A DNA stretch of 60,186 bases from a virus. Position 1 is the stretch's first letter. Each line of letters starts with the position of its first letter. The stretch lies in IMG/VR virus record IMGVR_UViG_3300035698_017217, positions 1 to 60,186 of that record. One strand, 5' to 3'. The position numbers were made by a program, and so were the translations under genes. The notes beneath the pieces were generated by a model that worked only from the letters and a program-made list of their open reading frames with translations, searched no databases and was not told the origin of the DNA. Shown one piece after another: positions 669 to 51,550 of the stretch.

Positions 669-1108
669 CAAAGCAGGTATATTGCAAATTTGAGCCTGAC
701 GGCAGCAACGCTTGCCGCTGCACACGATGCGGTTTTCTCAGTGACGTGTTAGATTGTCAGAAGAGTGTGCGGATATGTGATGTGCAATCTGATATTATTC
801 AGAATGAGAGAAAACAGATGCCCAAAAGATTTTGCACTGATTCTGGATGGGAAAAATCTAAACGTTGGTTGAAAGCTGTAGCAAAATGGACAGCAGACGG
901 TTGTCCTGTTCGTAATGATTTAGAAATAGAAACCTATTATGAAATTTGCCATGGCACAGAAGGAGAATCAGAACCATGCAGGTTTTTTAGTAAAGAAGGT
1001 TCTTGTAAATTATGTGGATGTAAATTAAGTAAAAGTAGAATCGCTTTTTTGAATAAGATACGAATGGCAACTGAATCATGCCCAAAAGGATATTGGCCTT
1101 ATGATTGA
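665..1108 (+). CDS. Cys-rich zinc-ribbon-like protein
   Basis: A 147-aa protein with many cysteines in CxxC pairs. The C-terminal part, CKLCGCKLSKSRI followed by ESCPKGYWP, matches the layout of small phage zinc proteins (DUF6171-like) that often accompany phage glycosyltransferases. The N-terminal half has CRCTRCGF, a second likely metal site. ATGA overlap with both neighbours suggests one transcript with the radical SAM gene. Function unknown; metal binding is inferred from cysteine spacing. Confidence 0.75.
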   Translation: MTKQVYCKFEPDGSNACRCTRCGFLSDVLDCQKSVRICDVQSDIIQNERKQMPKRFCTDSGWEKSKRWLKAVAKWTADGCPVRNDLEIETYYEICHGTEGESEPCRFFSKEGSCKLCGCKLSKSRIAFLNKIRMATESCPKGYWPYD

Positions 1109-3193: not shown

Positions 3194-3276
3194 TTTTTGG
3201 TTTTGTTCTATATTGTAATTTCACTTATTGAAATTGATAGTTTGTAGATTAGCGGATAAGGATTTGATGAATATGA

Positions 3277-3534
3277 ATGTGGGCTGACGTTGAACCAATT
3301 GCATGTGCTATTCGGGTGTTCCATGATGGGGCTGTATATGGTGATCCGTATACGTGGGCAGCTACGATACGATATATTGATCGGAAAACTATTGAGATTA
3401 TTGGCATTACCTGTGCTCCGAAGCCTAGTGAATGGCGGGCTATCGTAGCTAGAATGAAGTGTGATGGGGTTAGTAAGATAGTATTCAGCCGTAAACGTGG
3501 TGGCAATGATGAATCTCATACGATAGATGTGTAA
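3277..3534 (+). CDS. Hypothetical 85-aa protein
   Basis: No recognised motif. It is a compact alpha/beta-looking sequence with two tryptophans and a basic C-terminus (SRKRGG). It lies after an 83-bp gap that may hold a promoter and just overlaps the next reading frame. Ribosome site weak (AAGGA about 14 bases upstream). Most likely a real small gene because it fills the space between two tightly packed genes. Confidence 0.55.
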   Translation: MWADVEPIACAIRVFHDGAVYGDPYTWAATIRYIDRKTIEIIGITCAPKPSEWRAIVARMKCDGVSKIVFSRKRGGNDESHTIDV

Positions 3535-3571
3535 GCAATGCTTACAGGCTGAACAGTTAAAAGGACGAAGA

Positions 3572-4639
3572 ATGTCTGAAAAAGAATGTGAATATCAGTT
3601 TGAAGAAATGGATAATGGTAAACACAAATGCTCATTATTTCAAGAAGATAATGGGAATAACTGTGATGGATGTATCAAAAAATTACCATTAACTGATGAG
3701 CATTTTATAGAAAAATGGAAAGATCCTCTTATTGTTTTGGATCGAACACGTACTAAGACTGATTCTATTCACAATTTGCTTGGTGGTGGTTGTGCCTTTC
3801 TTGTTGGTGGTGGTCCATCCACTAAGAAATTTGCACTAGAGAAGTTGAATTATCGTGGTGTCTTCACGATGGGTGTAAATAATGTAGCCGCTCACCCGAG
3901 GTTCAGGGCTTCCTCGTTTGTGTGTTCCGACCCACCAAAGAAATTTTCGAATAGTATTTGGTTAGATCCGCATTGTATGAAATTCGTACCATCCCCAAAA
4001 ATGACCGGTCGTAGGCAAAAATTGAGAATGAAGAAAAATGGGGTATTCTATAAATCCGACACAGGTGTTTCTGAATGTCCTAATATATGGGCATTCAAAC
4101 GGCACAGTCATCTAAGGCCAGATGAAACTTTTTTCACTGAAGAAGGAGCATTTTGGGGAAACCATAACAAGGGTGTGAAGATGACAGGAGAGAAAAAGAC
4201 AGTTTGTACCATGCTGTTGGCTATGAGGTTGTTGTACTTCCTTGGAGCAAGACGTATCTTTCTAGTTGGTGTTGATTTCCTTATGAGCCCTGGGGCTGTC
4301 TATTCGTTCGATCAAGGTAAATCAGATGGTGGTTGTGATTCCAATAATAACCAATACACCGTAGTCAATGATTGGCTATGTAAGATGGAAGATGATGATG
4401 TATTTGGTAAATTTGGGTTAGAAATTTTTAACTGTTACGAACACAGTGGATTGAGGGCATTTCCTTATGTATCATTTGAAGACGCTATTGACATAGCTAC
4501 CCAAAACGTTGAACAAGTTCCTGATTTGAAAGATTGGTACGATAAGGACGAATGCCCAAATAAAGAATGCAAAAGTTGGCATTTGCATATAGTAGATGGC
4601 AAAAAAACATGTCTTGATTGTGGAAACGTTTGGGAATAG
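3572..4639 (+). CDS. Maf/MptE-like (DUF115-type) protein with zinc ribbon
   Basis: 355 aa from ATG 3572, chosen because AGGACGA lies 5-12 bases upstream; an in-frame ATG at 3527 would overlap the previous gene. The core has AFLVGGGPS followed by GVFTMGVNNVA and SFVCSDPP, resembling the DUF115/MptE-like fold found in flagellin-glycosylation Maf proteins and in phage glycan loci. The C-terminus CPNKEC...CLDCGNVWE is a zinc ribbon. N-terminal cysteines may form another metal site. Role inferred: sugar transfer or nucleotide-sugar handling. Confidence 0.7.
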   Translation: MSEKECEYQFEEMDNGKHKCSLFQEDNGNNCDGCIKKLPLTDEHFIEKWKDPLIVLDRTRTKTDSIHNLLGGGCAFLVGGGPSTKKFALEKLNYRGVFTMGVNNVAAHPRFRASSFVCSDPPKKFSNSIWLDPHCMKFVPSPKMTGRRQKLRMKKNGVFYKSDTGVSECPNIWAFKRHSHLRPDETFFTEEGAFWGNHNKGVKMTGEKKTVCTMLLAMRLLYFLGARRIFLVGVDFLMSPGAVYSFDQGKSDGGCDSNNNQYTVVNDWLCKMEDDDVFGKFGLEIFNCYEHSGLRAFPYVSFEDAIDIATQNVEQVPDLKDWYDKDECPNKECKSWHLHIVDGKKTCLDCGNVWE

Positions 4640-4648
4640 GAGATATTC

Positions 4649-5167
4649 ATGAACCTTATGCCGTTAATACTTCTGCAATGCATTCTCGTTGTGTCAGTCA
4701 TGATATACACTGAAATGAAAATGGGAAGAAAGTTGGGAACGTTGCAGCTTACAGCACCCAATTCAAGAGGTGTAATTGATGTTTATACGATGTCGCATAT
4801 CATCCATGGTTTTGTGTTCTACTGTTTGCTATCGATGCATTTTCCATTTGCTGCTGTGCTTCTGTATTCGGTCATACTAGAGTGCACTTGGGAGATATTC
4901 GAAAACACACCATTCGTAATCAACCGATACCGAAACACTATGTCTGCTGATTACCAAGGTGACACATTGATAAATTCATTCAGTGATGTTTTGTTTATGA
5001 GTGTGGGTGTTTTTGTTGCTTACGCTTTACCTGTTTGGTCTGTAGTATCGGTAATTTTGTTTTTTGAATTACTGTCTCTTTATTTGGTACGTGATAATTT
5101 GTTTTTGAATGTACTCATGCTGATCTACCCATTTGAATCTGTGAAGAAGTGGCAGAAAGCTGCTTAG
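4649..5167 (+). CDS. DUF2585 / UPF0314-like membrane protein
   Basis: 172 aa with about five hydrophobic segments. The middle contains DVYTMSHIIHGFVFY and WEIFENTPFVINRYR, then DYQGDTLINSFSDVL, which match the conserved core of UPF0314/DUF2585 membrane proteins. Family function is unknown. AGGAG lies 6 bases before the start. Its position in a glycan island suggests a membrane step, but that is inference. Confidence 0.8.
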   Translation: MNLMPLILLQCILVVSVMIYTEMKMGRKLGTLQLTAPNSRGVIDVYTMSHIIHGFVFYCLLSMHFPFAAVLLYSVILECTWEIFENTPFVINRYRNTMSADYQGDTLINSFSDVLFMSVGVFVAYALPVWSVVSVILFFELLSLYLVRDNLFLNVLMLIYPFESVKKWQKAA

Positions 5168-5180
5168 TAGAAAGAAGAAC

Positions 5181-5564
5181 ATGCTACCCACACACAATAT
5201 CCCACCCATTGGCCCGAAGCAGGGCAAGGTATGGGGCAAGACACAGCTAGTCTATGCTGACAGCTCCACAGAGACCCATGTGATAGAAGGTATTGCTGGG
5301 TACAAATGTAGTCGTCATTCTCACAAGTATAAATGGAATAGGTTTGTTGTGCTTAGTGGTAAGCTGACAGTTCGTATGTTTCCAGAAAGTGGGCTTATTG
5401 TTGATGAAACTACGCTTGGTCCTGGACAAGTCACTGATGTGCCTCCTGGTGTTTATCATGAATTTGAAGTGAAAGAAGACTTACAGGCCATTGAAATTTA
5501 TTGGGTAACATTAGATGCTGCTGACATAACCAGAGATGGTTTTGGAGGTAAGGTTAATGTTTGA
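5181..5564 (+). CDS. Cupin-fold protein
   Basis: 127 aa. The pattern CSRHSHKYKWNRF (metal-ligand His pair), GKLTVR, then PPGVYHEFE (second His) is a single cupin barrel. Related small cupins occur in phage and bacterial sugar loci as isomerases/epimerases or binding proteins. The substrate cannot be read from sequence. It overlaps the next coding region by 8 bases. Confidence 0.8.
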   Translation: MLPTHNIPPIGPKQGKVWGKTQLVYADSSTETHVIEGIAGYKCSRHSHKYKWNRFVVLSGKLTVRMFPESGLIVDETTLGPGQVTDVPPGVYHEFEVKEDLQAIEIYWVTLDAADITRDGFGGKVNV

Positions 5565-6342
5565 ACCTGATTATACAATTGTTTGTGGAGTAGACAAAAA
5601 ACATTTGCGTCAACTTACTTGGACATGGGCTACGTGGAAGTTTGCTAAACCCTCGTTACTGAATCATCCGATGTTGGTGTTTTATGATAGAGATGGAGTA
5701 ACGTCTGAACAGATCTTTGAGATGGTAGATCATCCGAATCTAACGACCGTTCCTTGGTGCCCGCCAAATATTAGTTATGAACGAAGAGTAGAAGGAAAGT
5801 TTGGTTGTCCTCAACGGTATAAAATGCTTGCTGGTTTTGTTCATGTTCCTGCTCGATATGTTAATACTAAGTATTGGTTAAAAATTGATGTTGATACTGT
5901 TGCAAATGGTGTCGATGATTGGATACAAGAAGAATGGTTCGATGATAATCCTGCTATTATTTCTCATCCATGGGGATTCACGAAACCACCGAATCAAATG
6001 CTTGAGTTGGATAAATGGGCTGATAGATTCCTGACGTTTAGTAATAATCCACCATTGAATCTGAAACCAAAAGAAGGTTGGAGTAGAGTTCGGCACAAGC
6101 GAATAATTAGTTGGGTTGGTTTCTTTAGTACGTACTTCACAAAGCTGTGTGCTGGCTTAACGATTGATGATTGTCCTTACCAATTACCTGTATCGTCACA
6201 AGATGGTTATATGTGGTACGTTGCAAAAAGATTAGAACTTGGCATTATCAGAACAAACATGAAGTCCAAAGGATGGGATCATTTGTCAAGTGAATCCAGT
6301 ATCCGTAAATCTGTAGAAAGAGTATTAAATAATGGCCAGTAG
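5557..6342 (+). CDS. Glycosyltransferase-like protein (GT-A)
   Basis: 261 aa, started at ATG 5557 because GGAGGTAAGG ends 3 bases before it. KIDVDTVANG is a DxD-type site preceded by a YWLK strand, as in nucleotide-diphospho-sugar transferases. A conserved-looking CPPN/CPQRYK region lies before it. Acceptor unknown. It overlaps the FkbM gene by 11 bases, so the two are probably co-translated. Confidence 0.7.
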   Translation: MFEPDYTIVCGVDKKHLRQLTWTWATWKFAKPSLLNHPMLVFYDRDGVTSEQIFEMVDHPNLTTVPWCPPNISYERRVEGKFGCPQRYKMLAGFVHVPARYVNTKYWLKIDVDTVANGVDDWIQEEWFDDNPAIISHPWGFTKPPNQMLELDKWADRFLTFSNNPPLNLKPKEGWSRVRHKRIISWVGFFSTYFTKLCAGLTIDDCPYQLPVSSQDGYMWYVAKRLELGIIRTNMKSKGWDHLSSESSIRKSVERVLNNGQ

Positions 6343-7030
6343 AATATTACGAAGAAGTGGTGCTGCTGTTTGTATTGTAGCTGAAAGACTTGGGTGGGAT
6401 GCTGATTTGATTATCCAAGTAGGTGTTGGTTTTCATCACAAAGAAATAGATGTAATGAAATCCGAAAAATGGCCTGATGCCGAATTGATTGGGTATGAGC
6501 CTAATCCAAAAATATTTATTGGGATTGATGGAAAGTATCCCGGTACAGTTATAAACAAAGCCGTTTCGTCTAAATCTGGTGTTATGAGTTTGTGGGAGAA
6601 AAAGGCACACAAAGATGGATCTTCACTCAAGAAATTCAATGGTACTAATAGAAAATTATTCGAACATACTGTTTACGTTACTACTCTTGATGAACAAATT
6701 TCTTGTCGTTTTAGCACTGATGGTAATATTCTTTTGTGGTTAGATTGTGAAGGCAGTGAATTGGATGTGCTTAATGGTGCTACTACGTTACTTGGCCATG
6801 TTGATATGATTAACATCGAAATGACTTCAGATCCTCCCAGTGATGAGTGGCCTGATACCCGTGTTGTGCATAATAAGTTACGGGATCATGGCTTCTTTCG
6901 TCAATATTTGCACACGATGAAAGGCAACCAGTATGATGCTATTTATGTGAAACCAAAACTGTTTGATTCTAGATTTTGTTGTTGTCCATTTTCGATTGAT
7001 GAGTATGAAAAGGAATTTGGTCTGAAATGA
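6332..7030 (+). CDS. FkbM-family SAM methyltransferase
   Basis: 232 aa. IIQVGVGFHHKE (SAM-binding loop), IGYEPNPK (acidic residue binding ribose) and LWLDCEGSELDVLNGA are the classic FkbM order. This family O-methylates sugars and related small molecules. Neighbouring glycosyltransferases suggest it caps a phage-modified glycan. ATGA overlap with the following gene. Confidence 0.85.
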   Translation: MASRILRRSGAAVCIVAERLGWDADLIIQVGVGFHHKEIDVMKSEKWPDAELIGYEPNPKIFIGIDGKYPGTVINKAVSSKSGVMSLWEKKAHKDGSSLKKFNGTNRKLFEHTVYVTTLDEQISCRFSTDGNILLWLDCEGSELDVLNGATTLLGHVDMINIEMTSDPPSDEWPDTRVVHNKLRDHGFFRQYLHTMKGNQYDAIYVKPKLFDSRFCCCPFSIDEYEKEFGLK

Positions 7031-7905
7031 AAAACCGTGTATTCTACGTAATGAGTGGTCCTGCCCATTTGCCTTATTTGCTTGTGTCATTGAAAACACT
7101 TCGGGAGCATTATGATGGAGAGGTTGTTGTTTTTGCTTGGAAAGAATCAATTGATATAGCCAGGAAGATAGCAGAAGATAAACGACTAAACATAGAAGTC
7201 AGATTACGTGAACCAGCACACCGATCTAAAAATGCTCAGTTCATGGATAAGATCAAAGTTGCTGCTGCCCAAAAGGGCGAAATTGATTGTGTTTTGTATT
7301 TAGATGCTGATACGACAATACACGGGTCTCTTGATTTCCTGTTTAATAATGCCTACGTACATGGTTTTGCTGCTACACAATTCAACAGTTGGTTGACTAC
7401 CCAAGGCATTCCGTCTAAACGTATTGTGAAATTGCTAAAGTATGATGGACAGATTGATCCTGTATTGGTCAATGAATGTTTGGATAAAGATAGTCGGATA
7501 CCCAGTGTGAATGGTGGTGTGTGGGCTTGTCGTCCTGAAAGTGCTGTTTTAGATGATTGGTACAACATGACTGAGATAGCACGGTCAGAGTTTATTGCTG
7601 ATGAAGTAGTGATGCATCTACTTGCACCGAAATTCAAAACAACTGGGAATTACACCATTGTTACTGGCAATGGAAAATTTAACTGTAGTCCGAAGTTTCA
7701 AAGCAAACGTCTTCATGATGATGACGTGACAATAAGACATTACCATGGAGATTCTAACGTTCGTCCTCAGAAAAATCAAAAAGGGTATGATCTGTGGTGG
7801 CCTATTTATTTGGAATGTTTGAAAGAAAATTTTGGTAATATTCAACAATGGATATTAGACATTGATAACAAATGGATGAATTTATTAAGAGAAAGAAGTG
7901 ACTGA
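7027..7905 (+). CDS. GT8-like glycosyltransferase
   Basis: 292 aa. VLYLDADTTIHG holds the DxD metal site; SVNGGVWACRP and IRHYHGDSNVRP correspond to the conserved NGG and late His regions of GT8-like retaining transferases. N-terminus FYVMSGPAHLPYLLVSLKTL fits the start of the GT-A fold. The sugar donor cannot be inferred. Confidence 0.8.
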   Translation: MKNRVFYVMSGPAHLPYLLVSLKTLREHYDGEVVVFAWKESIDIARKIAEDKRLNIEVRLREPAHRSKNAQFMDKIKVAAAQKGEIDCVLYLDADTTIHGSLDFLFNNAYVHGFAATQFNSWLTTQGIPSKRIVKLLKYDGQIDPVLVNECLDKDSRIPSVNGGVWACRPESAVLDDWYNMTEIARSEFIADEVVMHLLAPKFKTTGNYTIVTGNGKFNCSPKFQSKRLHDDDVTIRHYHGDSNVRPQKNQKGYDLWWPIYLECLKENFGNIQQWILDIDNKWMNLLRERSD

Positions 7906-7907
7906 TA

Positions 7908-8540
7908 ATGGCTAGAACAATGGGATTACTCCCTGGAAATTTTGAATTTACAAGGCAATGGTTTCAGAACCGAAATTTAAAAACGTTTGTCAGTCATGTT
8001 TTGCCTGTATGGGCAGATAAACCTATTGAGTATCTTGAGATTGGTGTGTTTGAAGGCATGTCAATGACTTGGATGCTGCAACGAATCCTCACGCATGTAG
8101 ACAGTAGGGCATATGGTATAGATCCTTGGCTGATTACTAGGAAAATTGATGAATTAGAAATGGAAAAGGTTCGTGGCAGAGCCATTCATAATACTTCACA
8201 ACCTGAATTCAAAAACAAATGCACTTTGATACGTGGAAATAGTGTTGAGGTTTTGAATAGAATGATAAGTAAAAGTGGGTATCGTGGTGTGAAGAAAGAG
8301 ACCATTGATATTTGTATGGTAGATGGCGATCATAATGCTCAAGCTGTTGTTCAAGATGCTGAGTGTTGTATGAAATTGATGAAGCCCGGTGGTTGGCTTC
8401 TTTTTGATGATGTTGAAAACAGAATTGTCAAAAAAGATCATGTGAAGCAAGGGCTGGAAATTTTCTTGGTTAGGAACCCAAGAGAGGTTAAGCTTTTATG
8501 GAAAGATCGGTTCATGGAATGTTATCAGGTGAAAGGTTGA
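7908..8540 (+). CDS. Class I SAM methyltransferase (Methyltransf_24-like)
   Basis: 210 aa. YLEIGVFEGMS is the SAM-binding glycine loop, AYGIDPW the acidic ribose site, and MVDGDHNAQAVVQD plus PGGWLLFDDV are the metal/late motifs seen in Methyltransf_24 and TylF-type sugar O-methyltransferases. It is followed by two shorter paralogues, forming a run of three related genes. Confidence 0.85.
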   Translation: MARTMGLLPGNFEFTRQWFQNRNLKTFVSHVLPVWADKPIEYLEIGVFEGMSMTWMLQRILTHVDSRAYGIDPWLITRKIDELEMEKVRGRAIHNTSQPEFKNKCTLIRGNSVEVLNRMISKSGYRGVKKETIDICMVDGDHNAQAVVQDAECCMKLMKPGGWLLFDDVENRIVKKDHVKQGLEIFLVRNPREVKLLWKDRFMECYQVKG

Positions 8541-8546
8541 AGAGTA

Positions 8547-9077
8547 ATGAGTAAAAATGACAGAGCCCATAGAATGCATTTGGCTGCATTAGATATAGTT
8601 CTAGACAACGTTACTTTTCCAGCAAAAGGTTGTGAAGTTGGCGTTTTAAGAGGAGAGCTAACATCTAAATTGTTGGCCAAGTTTCCTGAACTAACTATGT
8701 ATATGGCAGATCCGTATTTGATGGACAAAGGAAAACGTCCGCATGAAGTCATGATGAAAATCATGTCTACTGCATTCACGAACACACTGCCATTTGCTAA
8801 TCGTCGTATCATGCTAGTTGGTACTTCGACACAAGTAGTTCATTTAATTGAAGACGAATCACTTGATTTTGTTTATATTGATGCACGTCATAGTCGAAGG
8901 GCTGTGAAGATTGATATTGGTACGTGGTTTCCAAAAGTTAAGAAAGGTGGTCTGGTCAGTGGTCACGATTACAGCTTGACATATAACCATGGTGTAAAGA
9001 AGTCTGTGGATGAATTTGCAGCCAAAAATGGATATGAAGTTCAAGTAGAATTAACAAATTGGTGGTTTGTGAAATGA
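8547..9077 (+). CDS. Methyltransf_24-like protein, paralogue 1
   Basis: 176 aa. GCEVGVLRGELTSKL (SAM loop), YMADPYLM, LDFVYIDARHSRRAV and KGGLVSGHDY give a complete class I methyltransferase core. It is strikingly similar to the next gene, which points to a local tandem duplication. The start at ATG 8547 has GAAGAG nearby. Confidence 0.8.
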   Translation: MSKNDRAHRMHLAALDIVLDNVTFPAKGCEVGVLRGELTSKLLAKFPELTMYMADPYLMDKGKRPHEVMMKIMSTAFTNTLPFANRRIMLVGTSTQVVHLIEDESLDFVYIDARHSRRAVKIDIGTWFPKVKKGGLVSGHDYSLTYNHGVKKSVDEFAAKNGYEVQVELTNWWFVK

Positions 9078-9130
9078 ATTGGTTAAACAGATAACAGAAG
9101 ATCGCTCATAGACGTGAATTACTTCTAGAA

Positions 9131-9613
9131 GTGCTAGAAGACCATGTGGTGTTCCCTGCTATTGGTTGTGAAGTCGGTGTGTTAGATGGTGATTTATCTG
9201 TTGCTTTGCTAGAAAGATACGAAGACCTTGTTCTGTATATGGTTGACTGTTTCAAAGAATATCACGATTATGATGAAATTCGTATGAAAGGTGCTTTGAC
9301 ACATTCTTTTGTAAGCACTACTCCATACGCTGATCGTAGAATCATGTTTTTGGGAAAGTCTGTTCAAGTAACTCCGTTGATTAAAGACGAATCGCTTGAT
9401 TTTGTTTACATTGATGCCAATCATAAAAAAGTACCTGTATGTACTGATATAAATGCTTGGTGCCCAAAAGTGAAACCAGGGGGTTTTGTTAGTGGTCATG
9501 ATTATACTTCGGAGTTCCCCGGTGTTGTTTCTTCAATAGATCGTTTTGCAGAAGAAAATTGTTATACTGTAAATGAAGTAGGAAATCACTGGTGGTTTGT
9601 AAAAGATGATTAA
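9131..9613 (+). CDS. Methyltransf_24-like protein, paralogue 2 (5' end unclear)
   Basis: 160 aa from GTG 9131. GCEVGVLDGDLSVAL, LDFVYIDANHKK, PGGFVSGHDYT and the WWFVK ending mirror the upstream paralogue. Similarity continues upstream of the GTG (AHRR... aligns with the paralogue's AHRM...) until an in-frame TAA at 9092, with an ATG six codons before that stop. The N-terminus may therefore be shortened by a nonsense change, or a non-ATG start may be used. Confidence 0.7.
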   Translation: MLEDHVVFPAIGCEVGVLDGDLSVALLERYEDLVLYMVDCFKEYHDYDEIRMKGALTHSFVSTTPYADRRIMFLGKSVQVTPLIKDESLDFVYIDANHKKVPVCTDINAWCPKVKPGGFVSGHDYTSEFPGVVSSIDRFAEENCYTVNEVGNHWWFVKDD

Positions 9614-10157
9614 CTATAAACTGTTAGAATTTGCTGCACCGCCTTGTACTAAGGAAAATTGGTATGTCAAATCGTTTCAGTTGCTTGGTCTTGGTCCTGG
9701 AACTGTTTCTAATGCCCATTCCGCATGGGATCATGGGGATAAGCACAGACTGCTACGCTTGACGCTTGTGAGGAACCCTATTGATTGGCTAGTGGCTTTT
9801 TATCAAGCAGTAAGAACAGGAAAATCGAAAGAGTTAAATGGGACGTTTGGCCCTTTGGCTACTTTGAATTTTTCTAGTATAGATGGGTTTTTTGATTCAT
9901 ATTTACATAAAGCCCAAGGTTGTGTTACCAGTTTATTCAATAATTTTGAAGCTGACATTGTGCATAAGTCAGAAGATGCACCATACGCATTGATGGATTT
10001 TACGGATACATTGGAGATACCCAAAATCATGTCTAATCAATTGTTGAAAATAAAGTTGTGTTGTACTAATGAAGAACCGATTTCTATCAGTCCTTGGGTA
10101 AGAACTGAGATAAAGAAATCCGAACAGGAGATTTTTGATCGTTATGACTACTGGTAA
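9606..10157 (+). CDS. Sulfotransferase-like protein
   Basis: 183 aa. RLLRLTLVRNPIDWLVAFYQAV is close to the 3'-phosphate-binding region of PAPS-dependent sulfotransferases (RNP..W..S.Y). The early AAPPCTKENWYVKSF segment sits where the P-loop-like 5'-phosphosulfate site occurs, though the usual Lys-Ser-Gly pattern is not clean. Inferred role: sulfation of a sugar built by neighbouring enzymes, or a degenerate relative. Confidence 0.6.
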   Translation: MINYKLLEFAAPPCTKENWYVKSFQLLGLGPGTVSNAHSAWDHGDKHRLLRLTLVRNPIDWLVAFYQAVRTGKSKELNGTFGPLATLNFSSIDGFFDSYLHKAQGCVTSLFNNFEADIVHKSEDAPYALMDFTDTLEIPKIMSNQLLKIKLCCTNEEPISISPWVRTEIKKSEQEIFDRYDYW

Positions 10158-10854
10158 ACCGAGGAAAGTTATTGTTATTCCTGCTAGAATGGATTCTGGT
10201 AGACTGCCCGGTAAAGCTATGGCGGATATTAACGGCCTACCTCTTGTGCATAAAACATATAAGGCAGCCATGAGAACAAAGGCTAATTCGGTGTTTGTCA
10301 CAGCACCAGATGATGAAATTGAAATTTATTGTTCGAATCATGGCATTCCATTCCAGAGAACAGATAGTAACCTAACCAATGGAACACAAAGATGCCATCA
10401 AGCATTAGTTCGGTTGTTTGGTGATTCTGTATCCGATTTAACAACAGTTGTGAATTGGCAAGTTGATGAGCCGTTGGTAGATCCAACATATGTTAACAGA
10501 ATGCTTACTTCAAAATTATTTGTTATACATACTCTTGTTTCATACAAAGGAATTGATTTCCCCACAAAAAATGAAGTAAAAGTTATTGTCAATGACCAAT
10601 GCACTAGATGTCATTGGTTCACACGTAACGCTGTTCTTGGTGCTGCTTTTCATTGTGGAGTCTATTCATTTCCTTGGTTTGCTCTTGAGAAAATAGTGTT
10701 GTTGGTACCAAGTGAAAAAGCAGTATTGGAATCATTGGAGCAATTGACTTGGCTAGAACATGGGTTTTCCATAAAGCCTATTAAGATGCATATAATGCCT
10801 GTTGGCATAAATACCGAATCAGATCTTGAAGAATGTAGGAGATTGTTACGATGA
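10144..10854 (+). CDS. KdsB-like cytidylyltransferase
   Basis: 236 aa. VIPARMDSGRLPGKAMADINGLPLV closely follows the nucleotide-binding start of 3-deoxy-manno-octulosonate cytidylyltransferases, and NWQVDEPLVDP corresponds to QGDEP. These enzymes activate Kdo-like acid sugars as CMP-sugars. The gene suggests the phage makes or steals a CMP-linked sugar for its own transferases. ATG 10144 preferred; a TTG at 10135 is possible with AGGAG nearer to it. Confidence 0.8.
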   Translation: MTTGKPRKVIVIPARMDSGRLPGKAMADINGLPLVHKTYKAAMRTKANSVFVTAPDDEIEIYCSNHGIPFQRTDSNLTNGTQRCHQALVRLFGDSVSDLTTVVNWQVDEPLVDPTYVNRMLTSKLFVIHTLVSYKGIDFPTKNEVKVIVNDQCTRCHWFTRNAVLGAAFHCGVYSFPWFALEKIVLLVPSEKAVLESLEQLTWLEHGFSIKPIKMHIMPVGINTESDLEECRRLLR

Positions 10855-11561
10855 AGATTGAATTAGTTTCACATTGTTATGCTGAGAAGTTGGATTTTTT
10901 TGCAACTTGTCTAGCTGCTCAAATACGATCTATCTACCAAGATCCTTGTAAGCATGAAGTGACTTTGTCCGTTATTCTCACACCAGAAGACAAAGCTACT
11001 ATTGCTGTGATTGATAAATTTAGGTATTGGATGAACAAGATGAAGTTGCACTATATGCCTATTTCTCTTTGTGGGCGTAGGGCTATCGGACGTAACCAAG
11101 CTGCTTTGAATACTGATGCCGATTTTGTCTGGTTTACTGATGTGGATCATTGTTTCCCAAATCAGATGCTTGATAGATTGCCTGAAATAGAATGGCCAGA
11201 AGATGCAGTGATGATTTATCCTGAGATGATTTATATTCACAAAAATCATGCTATCGGTGATGAGTTCACTGGTAAGCTTAGACTGTCTGGTTACGAAGGC
11301 TATATGAACTTCGATAATTTTGTTCCCAAACGGTATGGTATGGCCATTGGCGGTGTGCAAATTGTGAAAGGTGATTTTGCACGTAAGTATGGTTATTTGC
11401 CTGATGTTGAAAAATGGCAAACGCCTGTTGATCGTCCTTTTCAAAAATCGAAAGAAGACATTGCTTACCGCAAGTTCTGCAAAACGAAAGGCACCATAGC
11501 AAAGGTTGATTATCCTGGTGTGTATCGTATCCGTCATGCTGAGATGTCTGAAAATCGTTGA
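10851..11561 (+). CDS. GT-A glycosyltransferase
   Basis: 236 aa. The GRNQAALNTDADFVWFTDVDHCF stretch gives the GT2-like donor-site helix plus a DxD. IGGVQIVKGDFARKYGYLPDV resembles the acceptor-side region. ATGA overlap with the cytidylyltransferase implies the pair works together: CMP- or UDP-sugar made, then transferred. Last gene of the sugar island. Confidence 0.75.
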   Translation: MKIELVSHCYAEKLDFFATCLAAQIRSIYQDPCKHEVTLSVILTPEDKATIAVIDKFRYWMNKMKLHYMPISLCGRRAIGRNQAALNTDADFVWFTDVDHCFPNQMLDRLPEIEWPEDAVMIYPEMIYIHKNHAIGDEFTGKLRLSGYEGYMNFDNFVPKRYGMAIGGVQIVKGDFARKYGYLPDVEKWQTPVDRPFQKSKEDIAYRKFCKTKGTIAKVDYPGVYRIRHAEMSENR

Positions 11562-16038: not shown

Positions 16039-16590
16039 ATGAGCGAAGAAACAGTACAACAAATAATTGCTGGCGGCACATTGCGTATGTCAGAGGAAAA
16101 ATATCGTCATATCGATTACGATTCTGGCAGCGTGGCAGAAAATACGCGGGGGCTGCCCGATGGCACCAAAATCGATATCGTCGCCCACGTACCAGTCGAA
16201 AGGAAGCTTGTGCGACCGCAGGGAGCGGTGTGGGTGGAGAGTGCTATCCGGGATGGAGCTTGGGACTTATGGTGTGGTAAGGGTATTGCGTTTGCTAGAG
16301 ATGATGGCAGTAAGTTTTGCTGGGTGACTAGAGATAAACGATGGCAGGCCGACACATTTAAAACCGCCAAACTCCAAGCAGAGCAGGCCCTAGCTGATGA
16401 TGGGTTGCATGGCTTTTCGTGGCGAAAGCCACCAGTGATTAGCCAATTCATTTGCGAAGCATGTCCGATGCCATGCAGGCTGGCAGCAGAATCTGAATGT
16501 CGCAGCATTGCCCCAGAGACCTGCCCGTATCGTAAGCATGGCGACATCCGTGAAGCTTACTGGGTTGAGGAAAGTGAGATGACGGGATGA
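16039..16590 (+). CDS. Cys-rich hypothetical protein of higher GC
   Basis: 183 aa. The C-terminal third has CEACPMPCRL...C...CPYR, a plausible metal-binding cluster; the N-terminal two thirds have several Trp/Asp-Gly turns. Its base composition (many GC-rich codons, e.g. 16130-16260) stands out from neighbours, suggesting recent acquisition. No function recognised. Confidence 0.7.
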   Translation: MSEETVQQIIAGGTLRMSEEKYRHIDYDSGSVAENTRGLPDGTKIDIVAHVPVERKLVRPQGAVWVESAIRDGAWDLWCGKGIAFARDDGSKFCWVTRDKRWQADTFKTAKLQAEQALADDGLHGFSWRKPPVISQFICEACPMPCRLAAESECRSIAPETCPYRKHGDIREAYWVEESEMTG

Positions 16591-30183: not shown

Positions 30184-31177
30184 AGACGTATTGATTAAGT
30201 TAGAGACCATTGTTCCTGGTATTACTACCGACGATGTTATTGAACAAGGGAATTGCTTTGTGTTTGTGGATGGCCAAGTGGTATCCTTCAATGACGAAGT
30301 AGCTTGTTTTGCTAAACTTGATCTTGGTTTTGAAGGAGCAGTACAAGCAAAGCTATTTTTGGGCTTGTTGCGAAAAATGACAGAAGAGATAATTGATATT
30401 TCTTTAGATGAATCTGTTATTGTTGTTAAAGGCAAGAGGAAGAAAGCAAAGATTGTTGTTGAGAATGATATTGTTCTAGGTGTTGAAGATATCGAATCTC
30501 CAGAAGATTGGAGTAAACTTGATGATGATTTTTCAAATGCGTTATCAACAACAATTCATTGTGCTAGTAAAGTAGAGTCACAATTTCTTTTGACATGTAT
30601 TCATATATGTCCTGATTGTTTGGAAGCTTGTGACAGATACCAAATAATCAAGTATCCAATTGTCATTGACATTTCTGATAATGTTTTGGTCAAAGCTACT
30701 TCATTACGTTATGTAGCTGATATGGGTATGAGTGAATTCAGTTTGACAAAAAATTGGATTCATTTTCGTAATGATGATGGTAGTGTGTTTAGTTGTAGAA
30801 TTTATAACGAAACGTTCATCAAGACCGAAAATCATTTTAACACTACTGGCGATAAAGTAGAATTCCCGAAAGACCTGAATAAAGCTATTACGACTGCTGC
30901 TATCTTCGCTACAGATTCGAATTCTGATGATGTGCTGAAGATTAAACTGACTCGTAGTAAAATGAAAGTAACTGGTGAAGGGACCAGTGGTGTTTACACT
31001 GAAGTCATACCAATTGATTATGAAGGGAAAGAGATTGAGTTCTTTATTGCACCCAAGTTTTTGTCTGAAGTGCTGAAGTACTCATATGAATGTGTTGTTT
31101 CGAAAGAAAGATTGATGGTAACTACTGACAAGTTTAAGTATGCCACTTGTTGTTGCCATGCACCATCAGGAAACTAA
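30167..31177 (+). CDS. DNA polymerase sliding clamp
   Basis: 336 aa with the repeated beta-alpha-beta pattern of beta-type clamps: Phe/Val-rich strands, FPKDLNKAITTAAIFA and a C-terminal FIAPKFLSEVLKYS segment similar to the final clamp domain. Its neighbours (loader ATPase at 35708, polymerase at 33544) complete the processivity set. Length is slightly short for DnaN, typical of phage clamps. Family assignment by pattern. Confidence 0.8.
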   Translation: MKVNREDVLIKLETIVPGITTDDVIEQGNCFVFVDGQVVSFNDEVACFAKLDLGFEGAVQAKLFLGLLRKMTEEIIDISLDESVIVVKGKRKKAKIVVENDIVLGVEDIESPEDWSKLDDDFSNALSTTIHCASKVESQFLLTCIHICPDCLEACDRYQIIKYPIVIDISDNVLVKATSLRYVADMGMSEFSLTKNWIHFRNDDGSVFSCRIYNETFIKTENHFNTTGDKVEFPKDLNKAITTAAIFATDSNSDDVLKIKLTRSKMKVTGEGTSGVYTEVIPIDYEGKEIEFFIAPKFLSEVLKYSYECVVSKERLMVTTDKFKYATCCCHAPSGN

Positions 31178-31178
31178 A

Positions 31179-32372
31179 ATGAATGGATTTTTTGATACTG
31201 ATTTTTCTAAGACTAGTCGTATGTCTAAAGTGCCTAGATGTAGAATGTGTAAGCTAGATAGAAAATGCATGTCACCAAGGATGGAACCTTATGGAAAAGG
31301 TGAAAGAAAAATCCTTGTTGTTACAGAGGCACCCGGTGAAGCGGAGGATGAGCAGAATGTTCGATATGTTGGAAAGTCATGGCAATTGTTGGACAAGATG
31401 TTTGATGAGGTCGGTTACGACTTAGAGATGGACTGCTGGGTTACGAGTGCGGTCACTTGCCGACCAATAGACAACAGAACGCCAACTAGGAAAGAGATTG
31501 ATTTTTGCCGTCCTTCGCTTCTTAATACAATTGATGAGTTAAAACCGTTTGCTGTTATTTTGATGGGAACGTCTGCTGTTGATTCGTTGCTTGGATCTGT
31601 TTGGAAAAAGGACATCGGTGGTATATCCAGATGGGCTGGTTATCAAATACCGTTGAGAGAGAAGAATATCTGGGCATGTCCAATTTTCCATCCATCGTAT
31701 GTTATACGAATGGAGAATGATGTACTTGATTTGTGGTACAAGAAGCATATCAAAAATGCAATGAAGTTGATGAGTGTGCCTTGGCCTGTTGGTCCACCTG
31801 ATTATGAAAAGATGGTAGTCAAGATACTTGACCATAAGAAAGCTGCAAAAGAAATCAATAAGTTTGTTGATTCTGGAAAGCCTGTTGCTTTTGATTATGA
31901 AACAGATCGTCTGAAGCCTGATGATCCTAGATCGAAAATAGCTAGCTGTGCTATAAGTGATGGTGTTAGAACTATTGCTTATCCATGGGAAGGTGATGCA
32001 GTACAAGCGTCTAGTGATTTTCTGAAAAGTGGTGTTCCAAAAATTGCTGCGAACATAAAGTTTGAAGAGCGATGGACGAAAGCTGTACTTGGTCATGGTG
32101 TAAACAATTGGAAGTTTGACACCATGCAAGCTTCTCATGTTTTCAATAACGAAGCTGGTATAACGTCTGTAAAATTTCAGTCTTTTATCCGTCTTGGTGT
32201 TGGTGACTATGATTCTTATATCCATCCATTTTTGTCCCAAGAAGGGCTGAACGGAGGAAATAGAGTTTTCCAAGCAGATATTGATAAGCTGCTTCTGTAC
32301 AATGGCATGGATGCAATTCTTGAATACCAAATAGCCGAACGACAGATGAAAGAAGTTGGAATCGTTTTATAA
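31179..32372 (+). CDS. UDG-like domain fused to 3'-5' exonuclease
   Basis: 397 aa from ATG 31179. Residues ~10-200: CRMCKLDRKC cluster cysteines, ILVVTEAPGEAEDEQ (UDG superfamily active-site loop), CWVTSAVTCRP and CPIFHPSY, as in family 4/5 uracil glycosylases and the UDG-like start of SPO1-type polymerases. Residues ~225-397: exo I AFDYETD, exo II AANIKFEERW, exo III LYNGMDAILEY. The polymerase domain expected next is on a separate ORF at 33544, after an HNH gene. Confidence 0.9.
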   Translation: MNGFFDTDFSKTSRMSKVPRCRMCKLDRKCMSPRMEPYGKGERKILVVTEAPGEAEDEQNVRYVGKSWQLLDKMFDEVGYDLEMDCWVTSAVTCRPIDNRTPTRKEIDFCRPSLLNTIDELKPFAVILMGTSAVDSLLGSVWKKDIGGISRWAGYQIPLREKNIWACPIFHPSYVIRMENDVLDLWYKKHIKNAMKLMSVPWPVGPPDYEKMVVKILDHKKAAKEINKFVDSGKPVAFDYETDRLKPDDPRSKIASCAISDGVRTIAYPWEGDAVQASSDFLKSGVPKIAANIKFEERWTKAVLGHGVNNWKFDTMQASHVFNNEAGITSVKFQSFIRLGVGDYDSYIHPFLSQEGLNGGNRVFQADIDKLLLYNGMDAILEYQIAERQMKEVGIVL

Positions 32373-32379
32373 ACGTGGT

Positions 32380-32389
32380 GTGAGAATAA
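32380..32389 (+). promoter_or_regulatory. Class B promoter-like motif (TGTGAGAATA)
   Basis: Lies 42 bases before the HNH gene and just after the exonuclease stop. If 32373-33543 is an intron this motif would lie inside it. Confidence 0.45.
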
Positions 32390-32431
32390 GATAGACAGTT
32401 TAAGTCAATTTTATTTTTACATGAGAGAACC

Positions 32432-33022
32432 ATGATCTGTAGAACCGATTGTGTTTTGAAAGAATGTAAAGAGTGTTGGGGTAAATTTACCACAAAGAAT
32501 AAAGATGAAAAGTATTGTTCTGCTGAATGTCGTGAAGAAGCAGAAAGAACTAAAACAATGGATCGTATAAGGAGACTTTCTGGTCCAATACTTGGTGAAT
32601 CAAACTCCAAAAAAAGAAGCCTTGCTTATTCTGATGATAGATTAGAAAAAGTTGAGTGTAAAGATGGAAAATGGGATATGTGGGTACGCAAAGATAGAAA
32701 AACTGCTTTTGTAAGAAAAGTAGTTGTTGTATTAGAAAAAGATAAGGGCAGTGAACTTACAAGGGGTGAAAAACAACGAATTCGTTTTAGAGATGGAAAC
32801 CGATTAAATACTCATATAGATAATTTGTTGTTTTCAAAAACAGAATATAAATTTAGAGTATGTAAAGTGTGTGGTGATGAGAAGTCAGTTCTCAAAGTCC
32901 ATTATGATACTTTTCAAGGAGTGTGTAGAAAATGTCATATTAAAATTGTTGGGCGTGGTCATAGAAAGCAAGATGCTGAGCAGGTAGTTGGAAGTAATAA
33001 TAAGGAGAATCAAAATGTCTAA
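32432..33022 (+). CDS. HNH endonuclease-like protein (possibly inactive)
   Basis: 196 aa. N-terminal CKECWGKFTTKNKDEKYCSAEC is a zinc finger typical of phage HNH proteins; IRFRDGNRLNTHIDNLLF aligns with the HNH core (HxDGNxxNNHIDNL) but the first catalytic His is Arg/Phe. C-terminal CKVCGDE...CRKCH is another zinc site. Could be a degenerate homing enzyme or a DNA-binding relic. It sits between the two halves of the polymerase. Confidence 0.8.
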   Translation: MICRTDCVLKECKECWGKFTTKNKDEKYCSAECREEAERTKTMDRIRRLSGPILGESNSKKRSLAYSDDRLEKVECKDGKWDMWVRKDRKTAFVRKVVVVLEKDKGSELTRGEKQRIRFRDGNRLNTHIDNLLFSKTEYKFRVCKVCGDEKSVLKVHYDTFQGVCRKCHIKIVGRGHRKQDAEQVVGSNNKENQNV

Positions 33023-33524
33023 GATAATCACCATAGAAGAATTGATAGTTGCTTTTGAAAAGAAATGTAATTTTGAAATACCAGTAGAAGGAATTTATGA
33101 GTGTGCTGTTGATGCGGTACAAATAAATAAACACAAAGATTACAAACGATCCATAATGTTGGATAAACTTAATACATGTTTAGATGGTTTCTGTTGTGAT
33201 TTTACAGATATTCGTCATATGATACATGAATGGCCGACTTTAGTGCAATGGAAAAAAGAAGGCTTGCAGACGATGAGGGATAAAATACATCAAGAAGAAA
33301 GAGGTAACAATGTAAGATGTAAGGTCAAAGTAAAATCAAAAACAAAAATAGAAATAGAATCTGGATTATCTAGAGCGTCTATGGCTAAAGAAGTTGCTTT
33401 GAAAAAACTACTCAAAGAAAAAGAAAAACAACATAAAGATGATAAAAAACAAATTGAATATTTATTGCAAATTTGTGAGAATCAAAAAGATGAAATTGCA
33501 CGTCTAAAAAAACGTGGAAAATAA
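33015..33524 (+). CDS. Hypothetical 169-aa protein with C-terminal coiled coil
   Basis: Start 33015 follows TAAGGAGAATC. N-terminal 70 residues helical with four Cys; C-terminal ~60 residues are a Lys/Glu coiled coil (KEVALKKLLKEKEKQ...). Lies with the HNH gene in the insert between exonuclease and polymerase ORFs. Confidence 0.65.
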   Translation: MSKIITIEELIVAFEKKCNFEIPVEGIYECAVDAVQINKHKDYKRSIMLDKLNTCLDGFCCDFTDIRHMIHEWPTLVQWKKEGLQTMRDKIHQEERGNNVRCKVKVKSKTKIEIESGLSRASMAKEVALKKLLKEKEKQHKDDKKQIEYLLQICENQKDEIARLKKRGK

Positions 33525-33543
33525 TTAGTTAAAGTAGCAAACT

Positions 33544-34884
33544 ATGAAATTCAAAACAAAAGACGCTTACAAATTGATGCATGATGGAGCATTGGCGTTG
33601 GCTCAAGTTGAGTCTGATGGTATGCGAATCGATGTTAAACGAATGGATCGTGCCATTGTTGAAACTGGTGAACGTATTACCAAAATGACAGCAGAGTTGA
33701 AGGAAGATGAGATTTGGAGAACATGGAAAAAGCTATTTGGAAAAAAGTCCAATCTTGGTAGTACTCACCAGTTAGGCAAAATCTTGTTTGAGGAACTTGG
33801 TTATGAGCCTAGATCTAGAACGAAAACAGGTAAGCCACAAGTCAATGAAGAAAACTTACGGTCTATTGATTTGAAGTTCATTGATGATTATCTCACCATT
33901 AAGAAATTGATGAAGCTACAATCTACTTACTTAAAGGGTATACGAAAAGAAGTAGTTGATGGGTTTCTTCGACCATCGTTCAATTTGCATCTTACCAAAA
34001 CGTTTCGGTCCAGTAGCAACAATCCAAATTTTCAGAACATACCAATCAGGGACAAAGAAATTGGCAAGTTGATTCGTTCGTGTTTCATACCAAGGGATGG
34101 GCATGTGTTGGTAGAAGTCGATTACGGTGCATTGGAGTTTCGGATTGCTGCATCGTTTTGGAAAGACAAGAACATGGTTGAGTATGCGTCTGATCCTGAT
34201 CTTGATATCCATAGAGACATGGCTGCTGAATGCTATTGCATGAAAAAGTCTGAAGTCACGAAAGAAGCTAGATTCTATGCAAAGAATCAGTTCGTATTTC
34301 CTACGTTGTATGGTTCGTACTACGTCACTACTGCTAGAGATCTGTGGACTGCTATGCAGAAAGAGAAACTGAAAACAGCAGATGGTGTTCCTCTTCAGCA
34401 GCATATGAGAAAGAAAGGTATCACTCAGCAAAATTTTGAATCACATATCAAAAAGGTAGAAGAATCCCTAAACGAACGATTTGCAACGTGGAGTGATAGA
34501 AAAGAAAAGTGGTGGAACAAGTATCAGAAAACTGGTGGCTTTGATTTGCTAACAGGCTTTCATATAGATGGCGTCTATTCTAAAAACCAATTGATGAATA
34601 CACCCATTCAAGGACCAGCATTCCATTGCTTGTTATGGTCGTTGATAAAAATGGTGAAGTGGCTGAATAAGAAACAGATGCGAAGTTGTGTCATTGGTCA
34701 GATTCATGATAGTATCGTGGCAGATGTGCATGTTGATGAATTGAAGACTTATCTTAGGAAGATAAAAAATGTGATGACTGTTGATGTGCGTAAGCATTAT
34801 AAATGGATCAGAACACCATTGGAGATCGAAGCTGAAGTGGCAGAAACGACGTGGTTTGATAAGAAAGAAGTTGATATCCCGTAG
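33544..34884 (+). CDS. Family A DNA polymerase domain
   Basis: 446 aa. Motif A VEVDYGALEFRIAA, O-helix region ARFYAKNQFVFPTLYGSY (Arg, Lys, Tyr-Gly), and motif C VIGQIHDSIVADVH, where the usual HDE is HDS. NPNFQNIPIRD and RTKTGKPQVNEENL are also standard. It has no exonuclease or UDG part; those lie upstream at 31179. No clear ribosome site precedes the ATG, which leaves open that it is joined to the upstream ORF by splicing or is translated by coupling. Confidence 0.9.
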   Translation: MKFKTKDAYKLMHDGALALAQVESDGMRIDVKRMDRAIVETGERITKMTAELKEDEIWRTWKKLFGKKSNLGSTHQLGKILFEELGYEPRSRTKTGKPQVNEENLRSIDLKFIDDYLTIKKLMKLQSTYLKGIRKEVVDGFLRPSFNLHLTKTFRSSSNNPNFQNIPIRDKEIGKLIRSCFIPRDGHVLVEVDYGALEFRIAASFWKDKNMVEYASDPDLDIHRDMAAECYCMKKSEVTKEARFYAKNQFVFPTLYGSYYVTTARDLWTAMQKEKLKTADGVPLQQHMRKKGITQQNFESHIKKVEESLNERFATWSDRKEKWWNKYQKTGGFDLLTGFHIDGVYSKNQLMNTPIQGPAFHCLLWSLIKMVKWLNKKQMRSCVIGQIHDSIVADVHVDELKTYLRKIKNVMTVDVRKHYKWIRTPLEIEAEVAETTWFDKKEVDIP

Positions 34885-34957
34885 AGTTAATTTTGGTAAA
34901 CCAACCGCGATAATTTCAATGTGAGTGGTGATTGTAGGTTCGAATCCTACCGGGATA
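34875..34957 (+). tRNA. tRNA-like RNA A (83 nt)
   Basis: 7-bp acceptor TATCCCG (34875-34881)/CGGGATA (34951-34957), perfect T arm GTAGG-TTCGAAT-CCTAC (34934-34950), but the D arm is poor and no standard 5-bp anticodon stem with a 7-base loop can be drawn. The 5' acceptor strand overlaps the last codons and stop of the polymerase gene. No encoded CCA. Confidence 0.45.
34906..34915 (+). promoter_or_regulatory. Class B promoter-like motif inside tRNA-like A
   Basis: CGCGATAATT resembles the class B core. It could drive tRNA-like B, or simply be part of tRNA-like A. Confidence 0.3.
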
Positions 34958-34976: not shown

Positions 34977-35172
34977 TATCTTGAGGCGAGAGGTACACGC
35001 TAAGACTACGAAAATGACCCTAATTGTTACGGCTGATCGGTCTCTGGTGACAGAGATGAATATCCAAAGCGGATCGGCTCCTAGTGAGTTCCATGCTTGA
35101 GTACTCATGATGATGGAAACTGGTAGCACGTAGTTACATGGGTTATCGGGGGTTCGAATCCCACTAAGATAA
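34977..35172 (+). tRNA. tRNA-like RNA B with ~115-nt insert
   Basis: Acceptor TATCTTG (34977-34983)/TAAGATA (35165-35171) with one wobble, D stem GCG/CGC around a GG-containing loop, T arm GGGGG-TTCGAAT-CCCAC with one mismatch, discriminator A. A 7-bp stem GACTACG (35004-35010)/CGTAGTT (35129-35135) takes the anticodon-stem place and encloses two further hairpins: GCTGATC/GATCGGC with an inner TCTCTG-GTGA-CAGAGA, and TTCCAT/ATGGAA. This looks like a tRNA with an inserted domain. Confidence 0.5.
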
Positions 35173-35196: not shown

Positions 35197-35529
35197 ATGG
35201 AAAAGGAAACTGGACGGATTTATACAGAAGCAGAAATGAAACGGATGGTATTAGAAGGCAGACATGCTTCTGATTTTGTGTCTATGGGAAAGAGCCCCAC
35301 TGCCAAACAACTGCGAAGAAATCCACAAAGTGTTGGACGGAATGAACCATGTGGATGTGGCAGTGGTAATAAGTTTAAGAAATGTTGCTTGGCGAAAGCT
35401 CGTAATGTTGAGCATGAAAGAAAGATGGCAATACTTAGAAGACAGGCTGAAATGTGTGTTTTGCTTGGTGAGTCATCAAGCAGTTTTTCAAGTCCACCAG
35501 AACCAGATAGAGGCGTTGAAAATGTGTAA
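35197..35529 (+). CDS. SEC-C motif protein
   Basis: 110 aa. VGRNEPCGCGSGNKFKKCC is an exact SEC-C zinc motif, found at the C-terminus of SecA and in many small proteins. The remaining residues are helical and Ser-rich at the end. Probably a zinc-dependent adaptor; partner unknown. AAAGGAG upstream. Confidence 0.85.
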   Translation: MEKETGRIYTEAEMKRMVLEGRHASDFVSMGKSPTAKQLRRNPQSVGRNEPCGCGSGNKFKKCCLAKARNVEHERKMAILRRQAEMCVLLGESSSSFSSPPEPDRGVENV

Positions 35530-50862: not shown

Positions 50863-51078
50863 ATGGATGGACTGTACACAAAGGAAGCCGTGAATCAAAT
50901 GAAATTCAATATCTTTTTTCGTATTCGTGGTACGGTCGGTGAAATGGAAATCCCAAACACCACTAACCCAATTGAGGCGGAAAACATCACGGATGTCTTG
51001 GAAAAATTGGTCACTCATTGGGTGCCTGACAACGCTTTAATATGCACAGTAGGTATCCGAATTGAATGTATTAAATGA
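50863..51078 (+). CDS. Hypothetical 71-aa protein
   Basis: No recognised motif; two beta-like strands (KFNIFFRIRGTVGEMEI, LICTVGIRIECIK) around a helix. Ends where the GC-rich RNA block begins. Confidence 0.6.
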   Translation: MDGLYTKEAVNQMKFNIFFRIRGTVGEMEIPNTTNPIEAENITDVLEKLVTHWVPDNALICTVGIRIECIK

Positions 51079-51313
51079 TTGTAGTAATTTATGAAACACC
51101 GTTCGACGGGATCTCGCAACCCGTTATTGAAGTTTGCGGCAATGACCTAGACGTTAATACTCGCTCCGCCCAGAGCATAAGGCCAGGGCAACAGGCCAGT
51201 AGCTACGGCTAAGTATATGGTGGAACGGTGGAAGTAGACCGGGTATTACCATTCCCGGCTGACCTGGGTGATTGCGGGAGAGCCCCAGTAAGAGTGACAA
51301 AAATCCCGACCAT
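51079..51313 (+). ncRNA. GC-rich structured RNA candidate upstream of tRNA-like C
   Basis: 235 bases without a coding gene and clearly richer in G+C than its surroundings. Hairpins visible: ACGGG (51106)/CCCGT (51120), CCGGG (51239)/CCCGG (51254), CTGGG (51264)/CCCAG (51284), CGGGA (51275)/TCCCG (51304). Together they suggest a folded RNA of unknown class. Confidence 0.45.
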
Positions 51314-51434
51314 GCCCTGGTAGCTCAATTGGTTGAGCGGCGGAAACAAGATCCGCGTCACCTGCAATAGGGAAGTACAACTTCGCAGGGGCGGCTATAG
51401 TAACGCTTTTGAGGGTTCGAATCCTTCCCAGGGC
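51314..51434 (+). tRNA. tRNA-like RNA C (121 nt) with 50-nt insert
   Basis: Acceptor GCCCTGG/CCAGGGC perfect (51314-51320/51428-51434); canonical D arm GCTC-AATTGGTT-GAGC (51323-51338); T arm GAGGG-TTCGAAT-CCTTC (51411-51427). GCGGA-AACAAGA-TCCGC (51340-51356) could be an anticodon arm with CAA, but position 33 is A not U, and 54 bases lie between it and the T arm. A GGCGG duplication flanks the extra piece. Confidence 0.6.
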
Positions 51435-51446
51435 TTTTATCTATAT

Positions 51447-51550
51447 GGCTCTGTAGAAATAATTGGCAAAATCACATGGGCGACCATGCCCATGCGGGTT
51501 TCTGTTCTAGATAAGGAAATCCTGTGTTGGTTCGAATCCAGCCGGAGCCG
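51447..51550 (+). tRNA. tRNA-like RNA D (104 nt)
   Basis: Acceptor GGCTCTG/CGGAGCC with one wobble, T arm GTTGG-TTCGAAT-CCAGC. In the anticodon place is a 7-bp perfect hairpin CATGGGC-GACCAT-GCCCATG (51475-51494), longer than normal, then a 7-bp variable-arm-like hairpin GGGTTTC/GAAATCC (51496-51522). D arm weak. Not a standard tRNA. Confidence 0.5.

Follow-up and report, generated by a model that had tools for sequence, protein, structure and literature searches.

Four intergenic elements in a phage record from IMG/VR join the upper half of a tRNA to lower halves in which none has a normal anticodon arm. We refer to them as A, B, C, and D, and to the 60,186-nucleotide stretch of DNA that was analysed as the window. 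Judging from sequence, we think it likely that these elements are non-decoding stable RNAs built on a tRNA-like scaffold, processed by the host and with the lower half as the working part. This explanation rests on the anatomy of the elements, their non-randomness, the recurrence of such elements in other phages, covariation in a related group that we call family X, replacement of an element's interior between two phages, and the precedent of T4 RNA C. The sequence-only reading of this DNA had noted C and D. That observation is real and larger than first noted: A and B, which adjoin the DNA polymerase gene, have the same architecture and are of the same kind.

Anatomy and setting of the four elements

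The tRNA-like tops that had been described for C and D are borne out. In C, the acceptor stem (GCCCTGG/CCAGGGC) forms seven Watson-Crick pairs out of seven, the T arm (GAGGG-TTCGAAT-CCTTC) forms 5/5 pairs, and the D arm is canonical (GCTC-AATTGGTT-GAGC). The acceptor of D (GGCTCTG/CGGAGCC) also pairs 7/7, with one G-U, and its T arm (GTTGG-TTCGAAT-CCAGC) 5/5; the D stem is absent. Extra bases and hairpins had been placed at the anticodon and variable region. The extras are present, but C keeps an arm at the anticodon position, a 5-bp stem with a 7-nt loop (GCGGA-AACAAGA-TCCGC), and its roughly 50 extra bases lie in the variable region. This loop has A33 in place of U33, a base that is near-universal in decoding tRNAs. 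The extra hairpin of D is CATGGGC..GCCCATG, and a second stem carries a loop of about 11-13 nt that contains TTCTAGA. The CUA in this loop is unlikely to be a suppressor anticodon because TAG, which ends 8 of the 25 genes surveyed, is a normal stop codon in this phage and because the loop is too large. Compared with shuffled sequences, both C (z -3.4) and D (z -2.8) fold better than nearly all.

The acceptor of A (TATCCCG/CGGGATA) is Watson-Crick paired at all seven positions and overlaps the stop codon (34882-34884) of the DNA polymerase ORF. The T arm of A (GTAGG-TTCGAAT-CCTAC) pairs 5/5, its D arm is weak, and the stem at the anticodon position carries a 16-nt loop. In B, the acceptor (TATCTTG/TAAGATA) pairs 7/7 with one G-U, the T arm (GGGGG-TTCGAAT-CCCAC) 4/5, and the D arm is again weak (GCG-AGAGGTACA-CGC). 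About 120 extra bases stand where the anticodon arm belongs, and a T run follows the element. With a fold z of -0.57 and no tRNA match in Rfam, B is the weakest of the four.

Table 1 Positions of the elements in the window and of comparable features elsewhere.
Feature	Position	Strand	Description
Element A	34875..34957	+	83 nt; found by T-arm and acceptor scan; RF00005 31.2 bits in local search
Element B	34977..35171	+	195 nt; found by T-arm and acceptor scan
Region U	51079..51313	+	235 nt, 51% GC; no known RNA family
11-base repeat, copy 1 (CGACCATGCCC)	51307..51317	+	overlaps first 4 bases of C
Element C	51314..51434	+	121 nt; T arm, acceptor, D arm; two extra hairpins in variable region
Element D	51447..51549	+	103 nt; acceptor, T arm, extra 7-bp hairpin
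11-base repeat, copy 2	51481..51491	+	within extra hairpin of D
Neighbouring elements in G036 and G037	L136 7403-7750 (G036); L127 8187-8393 (G037)		conserved acceptor and T stems
Family X	L178, L194, L196, L248, L649-L719 (IMG/VR)		widespread; encoded CCA, hairpin replaces anticodon
T4 RNA C (species 1)	AF158101 70908-71046		139 nt

The elements are non-random. The window contains exactly four copies of GGTTCGAATCC, one per element, compared with a chance expectation of 0.64 even with one mismatch allowed. A strict scan for an acceptor stem plus T arm gave three hits in the window (A, C, and D) versus 0.03 per shuffle; among 300 Markov shuffles, eight had one hit and none had two.

The elements do not behave as ordinary tRNAs in standard searches either. 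ARAGORN assigned no tRNA and no tmRNA in the window, and Rfam reported nothing for the whole window at the gathering threshold. In local Rfam searches run with relaxed filters, the tRNA model RF00005 scored C at 41.3 bits, with 61 bases separating the two strands that it takes as the anticodon stem, and matched A with 16 nt in the anticodon loop; it did not match B or D. The covariance model therefore fits C and A only with large insertions or an oversized loop, and the assignment of ordinary tRNAs that would have counted against the sequence-only reading did not occur. A normal anticodon arm, with a 5-bp stem, a 7-nt loop, and U33, is found in 0/4 elements.

The record encodes terminase, DnaB helicase, primase, clamp, clamp loader, and UvsX, and has an average GC content of 39%, with a peak of up to 64% per 100 bases at 16098-16326. 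All four elements are intergenic and co-directional. A small gene ends at 51078 and the next one starts near 51592; U, C, and D lie in the roughly 510 bases that separate them. Beside A-D, neither a sigma-70-type promoter nor an intrinsic terminator is conspicuous. HDV-like theta ribozymes have been reported downstream of phage tRNAs in gut phages (PMC10879173); as far as Rfam covers such ribozymes, none was matched beside the elements. A small SEC-C motif protein is encoded immediately 3' of B (35197-35529). The DNA polymerase I gene is in two pieces, with homology in ORFs 31140-32372 and 33544-34884; the region between them (32373-33543) holds two unidentified ORFs (32432-33022 and 32988-33524), and the arrangement may reflect either an inserted element or a split gene. 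Elsewhere, positions 1101-11561 form a sugar-modification block with genes for a glycosyltransferase, a sialyltransferase-like protein, FkbM and other methyltransferases, a radical SAM protein, and a cytidylyltransferase.

Region U abuts C with zero gap. It is probably non-coding because the codon use of the ORF within it (51075-51212) is unlike that of the phage's genes (-0.15 bits per codon; GC3 0.53 versus 0.32), and we rejected a coding role on this ground. U had been described as GC-rich and full of hairpins, but it folds no better than its shuffles (z -0.04), and a search of U against Rfam returned nothing at E <= 10. U may be part of the tRNA-like system, for example as a leader of C, or may be unrelated to it. 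The 11-base repeat noted earlier is indeed present both just before C and inside D; it carries little weight because 52 of 2000 shuffles (about 2.6%) reach it, and we dropped it as a marginal signal.

Related elements in other phages

Sequence searches and T-arm sampling in IMG/VR gave no homologue of any of the window's four elements, which therefore offer no covariation of their own. Protein scans of IMG/VR and INPHARED with the terminase and the DNA polymerase likewise found no close relatives. Related phages were collected through a helicase alignment with RM378, phiLo, and others, yielding 80 related contigs; GGTTCGAATCC is present in 8 of the 50 related records searched. Across the window and 60 related stretches (about 1.1 Mb), the scanner found 17 elements versus 0.4 per shuffle, and ARAGORN misses 16 of these 17. 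Element lengths range from 59 to 178 nt, and a wider scan adds a 47-nt form reduced to the acceptor, the T arm, and one small hairpin. Chance hits in coding DNA may account for a few of the long elements.

Individual relatives show how far the lower half can depart from that of a tRNA. One element of 59 nt (L154 17277-17335) has D and T arms and an encoded CCA, with only 11 bases at the place of the anticodon arm. Another, of 67 nt (L136 7684-7750), has a full tRNA body in which the stem at the anticodon position ends in a 4-nt loop. A third extends to 162 nt (L132 4412-4573). One related record, G048, carries large arrays of ordinary tRNAs.

Two related phages, G036 and G037, offer a direct comparison. 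The sequence flanking the element is almost the same in both, for about 150 bases on one side and about 125 on the opposite side. The enclosed element has the same acceptor (GGATCGG..CCGATCC) and T stem in the two phages, but its interior is wholly different. G036 also holds a second element, of 67 nt, with the same acceptor. Recombination between elements with common acceptor and T-arm sequences would produce this swap, which is also to be expected if the scaffold leaves its interior free to change. In one copy among these elements, the T loop reads TGAAAAC in place of TTCGAAT.

We also sampled IMG/VR for exact copies of the T arms found in A, D, and C and obtained 220 usable places. ARAGORN called 197 of them tRNAs. 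Among those that it did not call, 11 are elements whose 7-bp acceptor is perfectly paired, compared with 1.3 expected by chance. In a control of bacterial genomes with the same T arm, 80 of 86 places were ARAGORN tRNAs and one was an uncalled element. The T arm of C occurs in none of the 11 uncalled IMG/VR elements, two of which lie in contigs of more than 400 kb (L438 and L457). Several of the other T arms that ARAGORN did not call resemble 3' fragments of tRNAs at phage attachment sites. The sole bacterial element of the control, 83 nt long with an encoded CCA, is on a contig of a Parvularculaceae MAG (L296) and could lie in a prophage.

Four of the 11 uncalled elements are related to one another and define family X. 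A motif scan for this family returned at least 120 contig stretches, and the alignment comprised 53 distinct sequences from these. Each of the 12 pairs of the acceptor and T stem is present in 53/53 sequences; moreover, five of the seven acceptor positions show more than one type of standard pair, and three have changed on both sides. At the anticodon position is a hairpin of widely varying length, capped in some members by UUCG or CUUG, followed by a variable arm, and the body is class II-like. Where ARAGORN does call a member, it reads a false anticodon from the hairpin cap, in some cases tRNA-Arg(tcg) or tRNA-Pro(ggg), for example. No full-length match was found in cultured phages, and in seven of eight contigs checked no other tRNA was called nearby. 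No functional clue came from the neighbouring genes, which are of unknown kind apart from radical SAM genes in one contig. Family X shows that the upper half of a tRNA, lacking an anticodon, can be under structural selection in phages.

A second group was considered and set aside. Two distinct tRNA-like RNAs of 70 and 78 nt with an encoded CCA (L225 1142-1211 and L126 3388-3465) have the motif CTGC..ATGATAGC....ATGACAG in common, between the acceptor and the T arm. As a large family (family Y) this motif was rejected: only these two are distinct true members, and the other matches are coding or unrelated.

Possible roles of the elements

Each of A-D consists of a tRNA-like upper half, made of the acceptor stem and T arm and usually a D loop, and of a lower half of its own that replaces a working anticodon arm and takes the form of a long insert, of extra hairpins, or of a loop larger than normal. 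The acceptor and T arm form the part of a tRNA recognised by RNase P, the 3'-end nucleases, the CCA-adding enzyme, and EF-Tu. Host tRNA-processing enzymes, namely RNase P and the 3' nucleases, probably excise the elements from phage transcripts, and the excised RNAs would persist as stable RNAs. The lower half would then be the working part, binding protein or RNA, with the tRNA part giving processing and stability.

The elements could instead be decoys, or cleavage-resistant mimics, that titrate or survive host defence proteins that cleave or bind tRNAs. Phage tRNAs have been proposed to evade anticodon nucleases through mutations in the anticodon loop (PMC10264068), phage tRNAs are reported to evade a retron (PMC11555353), and loss of the anticodon would fit insensitivity to anticodon nucleases. 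But the phage tRNAs that set this precedent replace a host function and keep their anticodon, whereas A-D are unable to decode; one would expect an anticodon-nuclease decoy to retain the target loop; and no RNA ligase or kinase was found among the 30 window ORFs scanned with Pfam. We regard decoys as unlikely. That A-D might be decaying tRNA genes, pseudogenes on their way to being lost, seems quite unlikely as well: every lower half is different, the T stem of B has a mismatch, and A-D have no homologues to show selection, yet decay should strike all parts alike, and A, C, D, and most relatives have intact acceptor and T stems, with variation confined to the lower halves. Nor would decay produce the covariation of family X or the conservation of T4 RNA C, an expressed RNA, in about 700 records. 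It is rather improbable that the elements act in cis, with RNase P and 3' nucleases cutting at their tRNA-like shapes and so separating or stabilising phage mRNAs. Their co-directional, intergenic placement, the overlap of A with the polymerase stop codon, and the minimal content of the 47-nt form would suit such punctuation; it does not explain why C and D have large, folded lower halves or why many relatives encode a CCA.

Inserts are a classic sign of introns in tRNA genes, and ARAGORN can miss intron-containing tRNA genes, so A-D might be spliced to ordinary tRNAs. We consider this extremely unlikely. Neither cluster has a group I or group II intron match in Rfam at E <= 10. The arm of C is already complete, and losing its variable-region insert would still leave A33; judged by eye, C shows no bulge-helix-bulge joint of the archaeal type that would yield U33. 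Relatives that have no anticodon arm, a 4-nt loop, or the capped hairpin of family X offer nothing to splice into an anticodon. The sequence-only reading had also raised the possibility of one large RNA, in which U, C, and D would belong to a single structure, or U and C to a divergent tmRNA. U does abut C, and it contains TTCGACGGGAT followed by GC and AACCC, which we take to resemble the 5' D-loop region of a tmRNA. Against this, C and D are each closed by their own acceptor, U has no 5' acceptor strand that pairs with C or D, and it shows neither excess fold stability nor an Rfam match. ARAGORN found no tmRNA, and the tmRNA model had no Rfam match in U, C, or D, with a lone 9.7-bit, 13-nt T-loop fragment in B. 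We therefore rejected U as part of a tmRNA and regard a single large RNA of either kind as very unlikely. The suggestion of tRNAs with a new kind of insert fared better and is partly supported: the top half is that of a tRNA, the lower half is abnormal, and the combination recurs in other phages.

Significance and comparison with known RNAs

By architecture, A-D are new members of the kind of RNA represented by T4 RNA C, without known homologues of their own, and this kind of phage RNA is real and under-described. It is possible, and we propose it tentatively, that phages hold widespread, largely unannotated RNAs in a tRNA shell, of which A-D, family X, and T4 RNA C would be instances. In such RNAs the upper half would be conserved as a scaffold for processing and stability, often with an encoded CCA, and nothing would prevent the lower half from evolving or being exchanged; certain members, family X for instance, may be charged and serve purposes other than decoding. 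Standard tRNA finders miss such genes or assign them false anticodons. If the elements are expressed, phages have made the tRNA fold carry other RNA domains; biotechnologists also use this fold, to stabilise recombinant RNA. If the proposal is true, T4 RNA C belongs to a testable class and is not an oddity, and families with covariation are now available for study. Searches of mostly freely available literature found no paper describing a class of anticodon-less phage tRNAs.

A-D have in common with canonical tRNAs (RF00005) the 7-bp acceptor and the T arm and loop, and in C the D arm; they differ in lacking a normal anticodon arm in all four and in their lengths of 83-195 nt. The tmRNA (RF00023) is similar in having a tRNA-like domain with a large insert for the anticodon arm and, as in D, no D stem. 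In contrast to tmRNAs, the elements drew no ARAGORN call and no Rfam match beyond the piece in B, and most related elements are far too short. The anticodon-loop mutants of phage tRNAs (PMC10264068) have altered loops, as A-D do, but keep decodable anticodons. Family X resembles A-D in having the upper half of a tRNA, with a hairpin in place of the anticodon loop; unlike A-D, it has a class II-like body and an encoded CCA, and it has no homology to them.

The closest known RNA to A-D is T4 RNA C, also called species 1, a late RNA of unknown function that Northern blots confirmed and that accumulates during infection as a discrete stable species (PMC9697503). Its expression is thus demonstrated, which sets it apart from A-D. 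No sequence similarity was detected between T4 RNA C and A-D, and a search with the window region hit no RNA C. RNA C is absent from Rfam, and blastn with it returns about 700 records, mainly from T-even phages. It lies within a cluster of canonical tRNAs and is mismatched at the centre of its acceptor, two features in which it is unlike A-D. On our reading of the alignments, the third acceptor pair changes from A-T to G-C in distant T-even homologues, and in a homologue from a Yersinia phage the acceptor forms 7/7 pairs. Like A-D, T4 RNA C is encoded in a phage genome, has a T arm (CCGGG-TTCGAAT-CCCGG) at its 3' end and an acceptor-like closing stem, lacks an anticodon, and folds about 60 extra bases into hairpins. 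A-D thus have the architecture of T4 RNA C, an acceptor and T arm around a structured insert that is not an anticodon.
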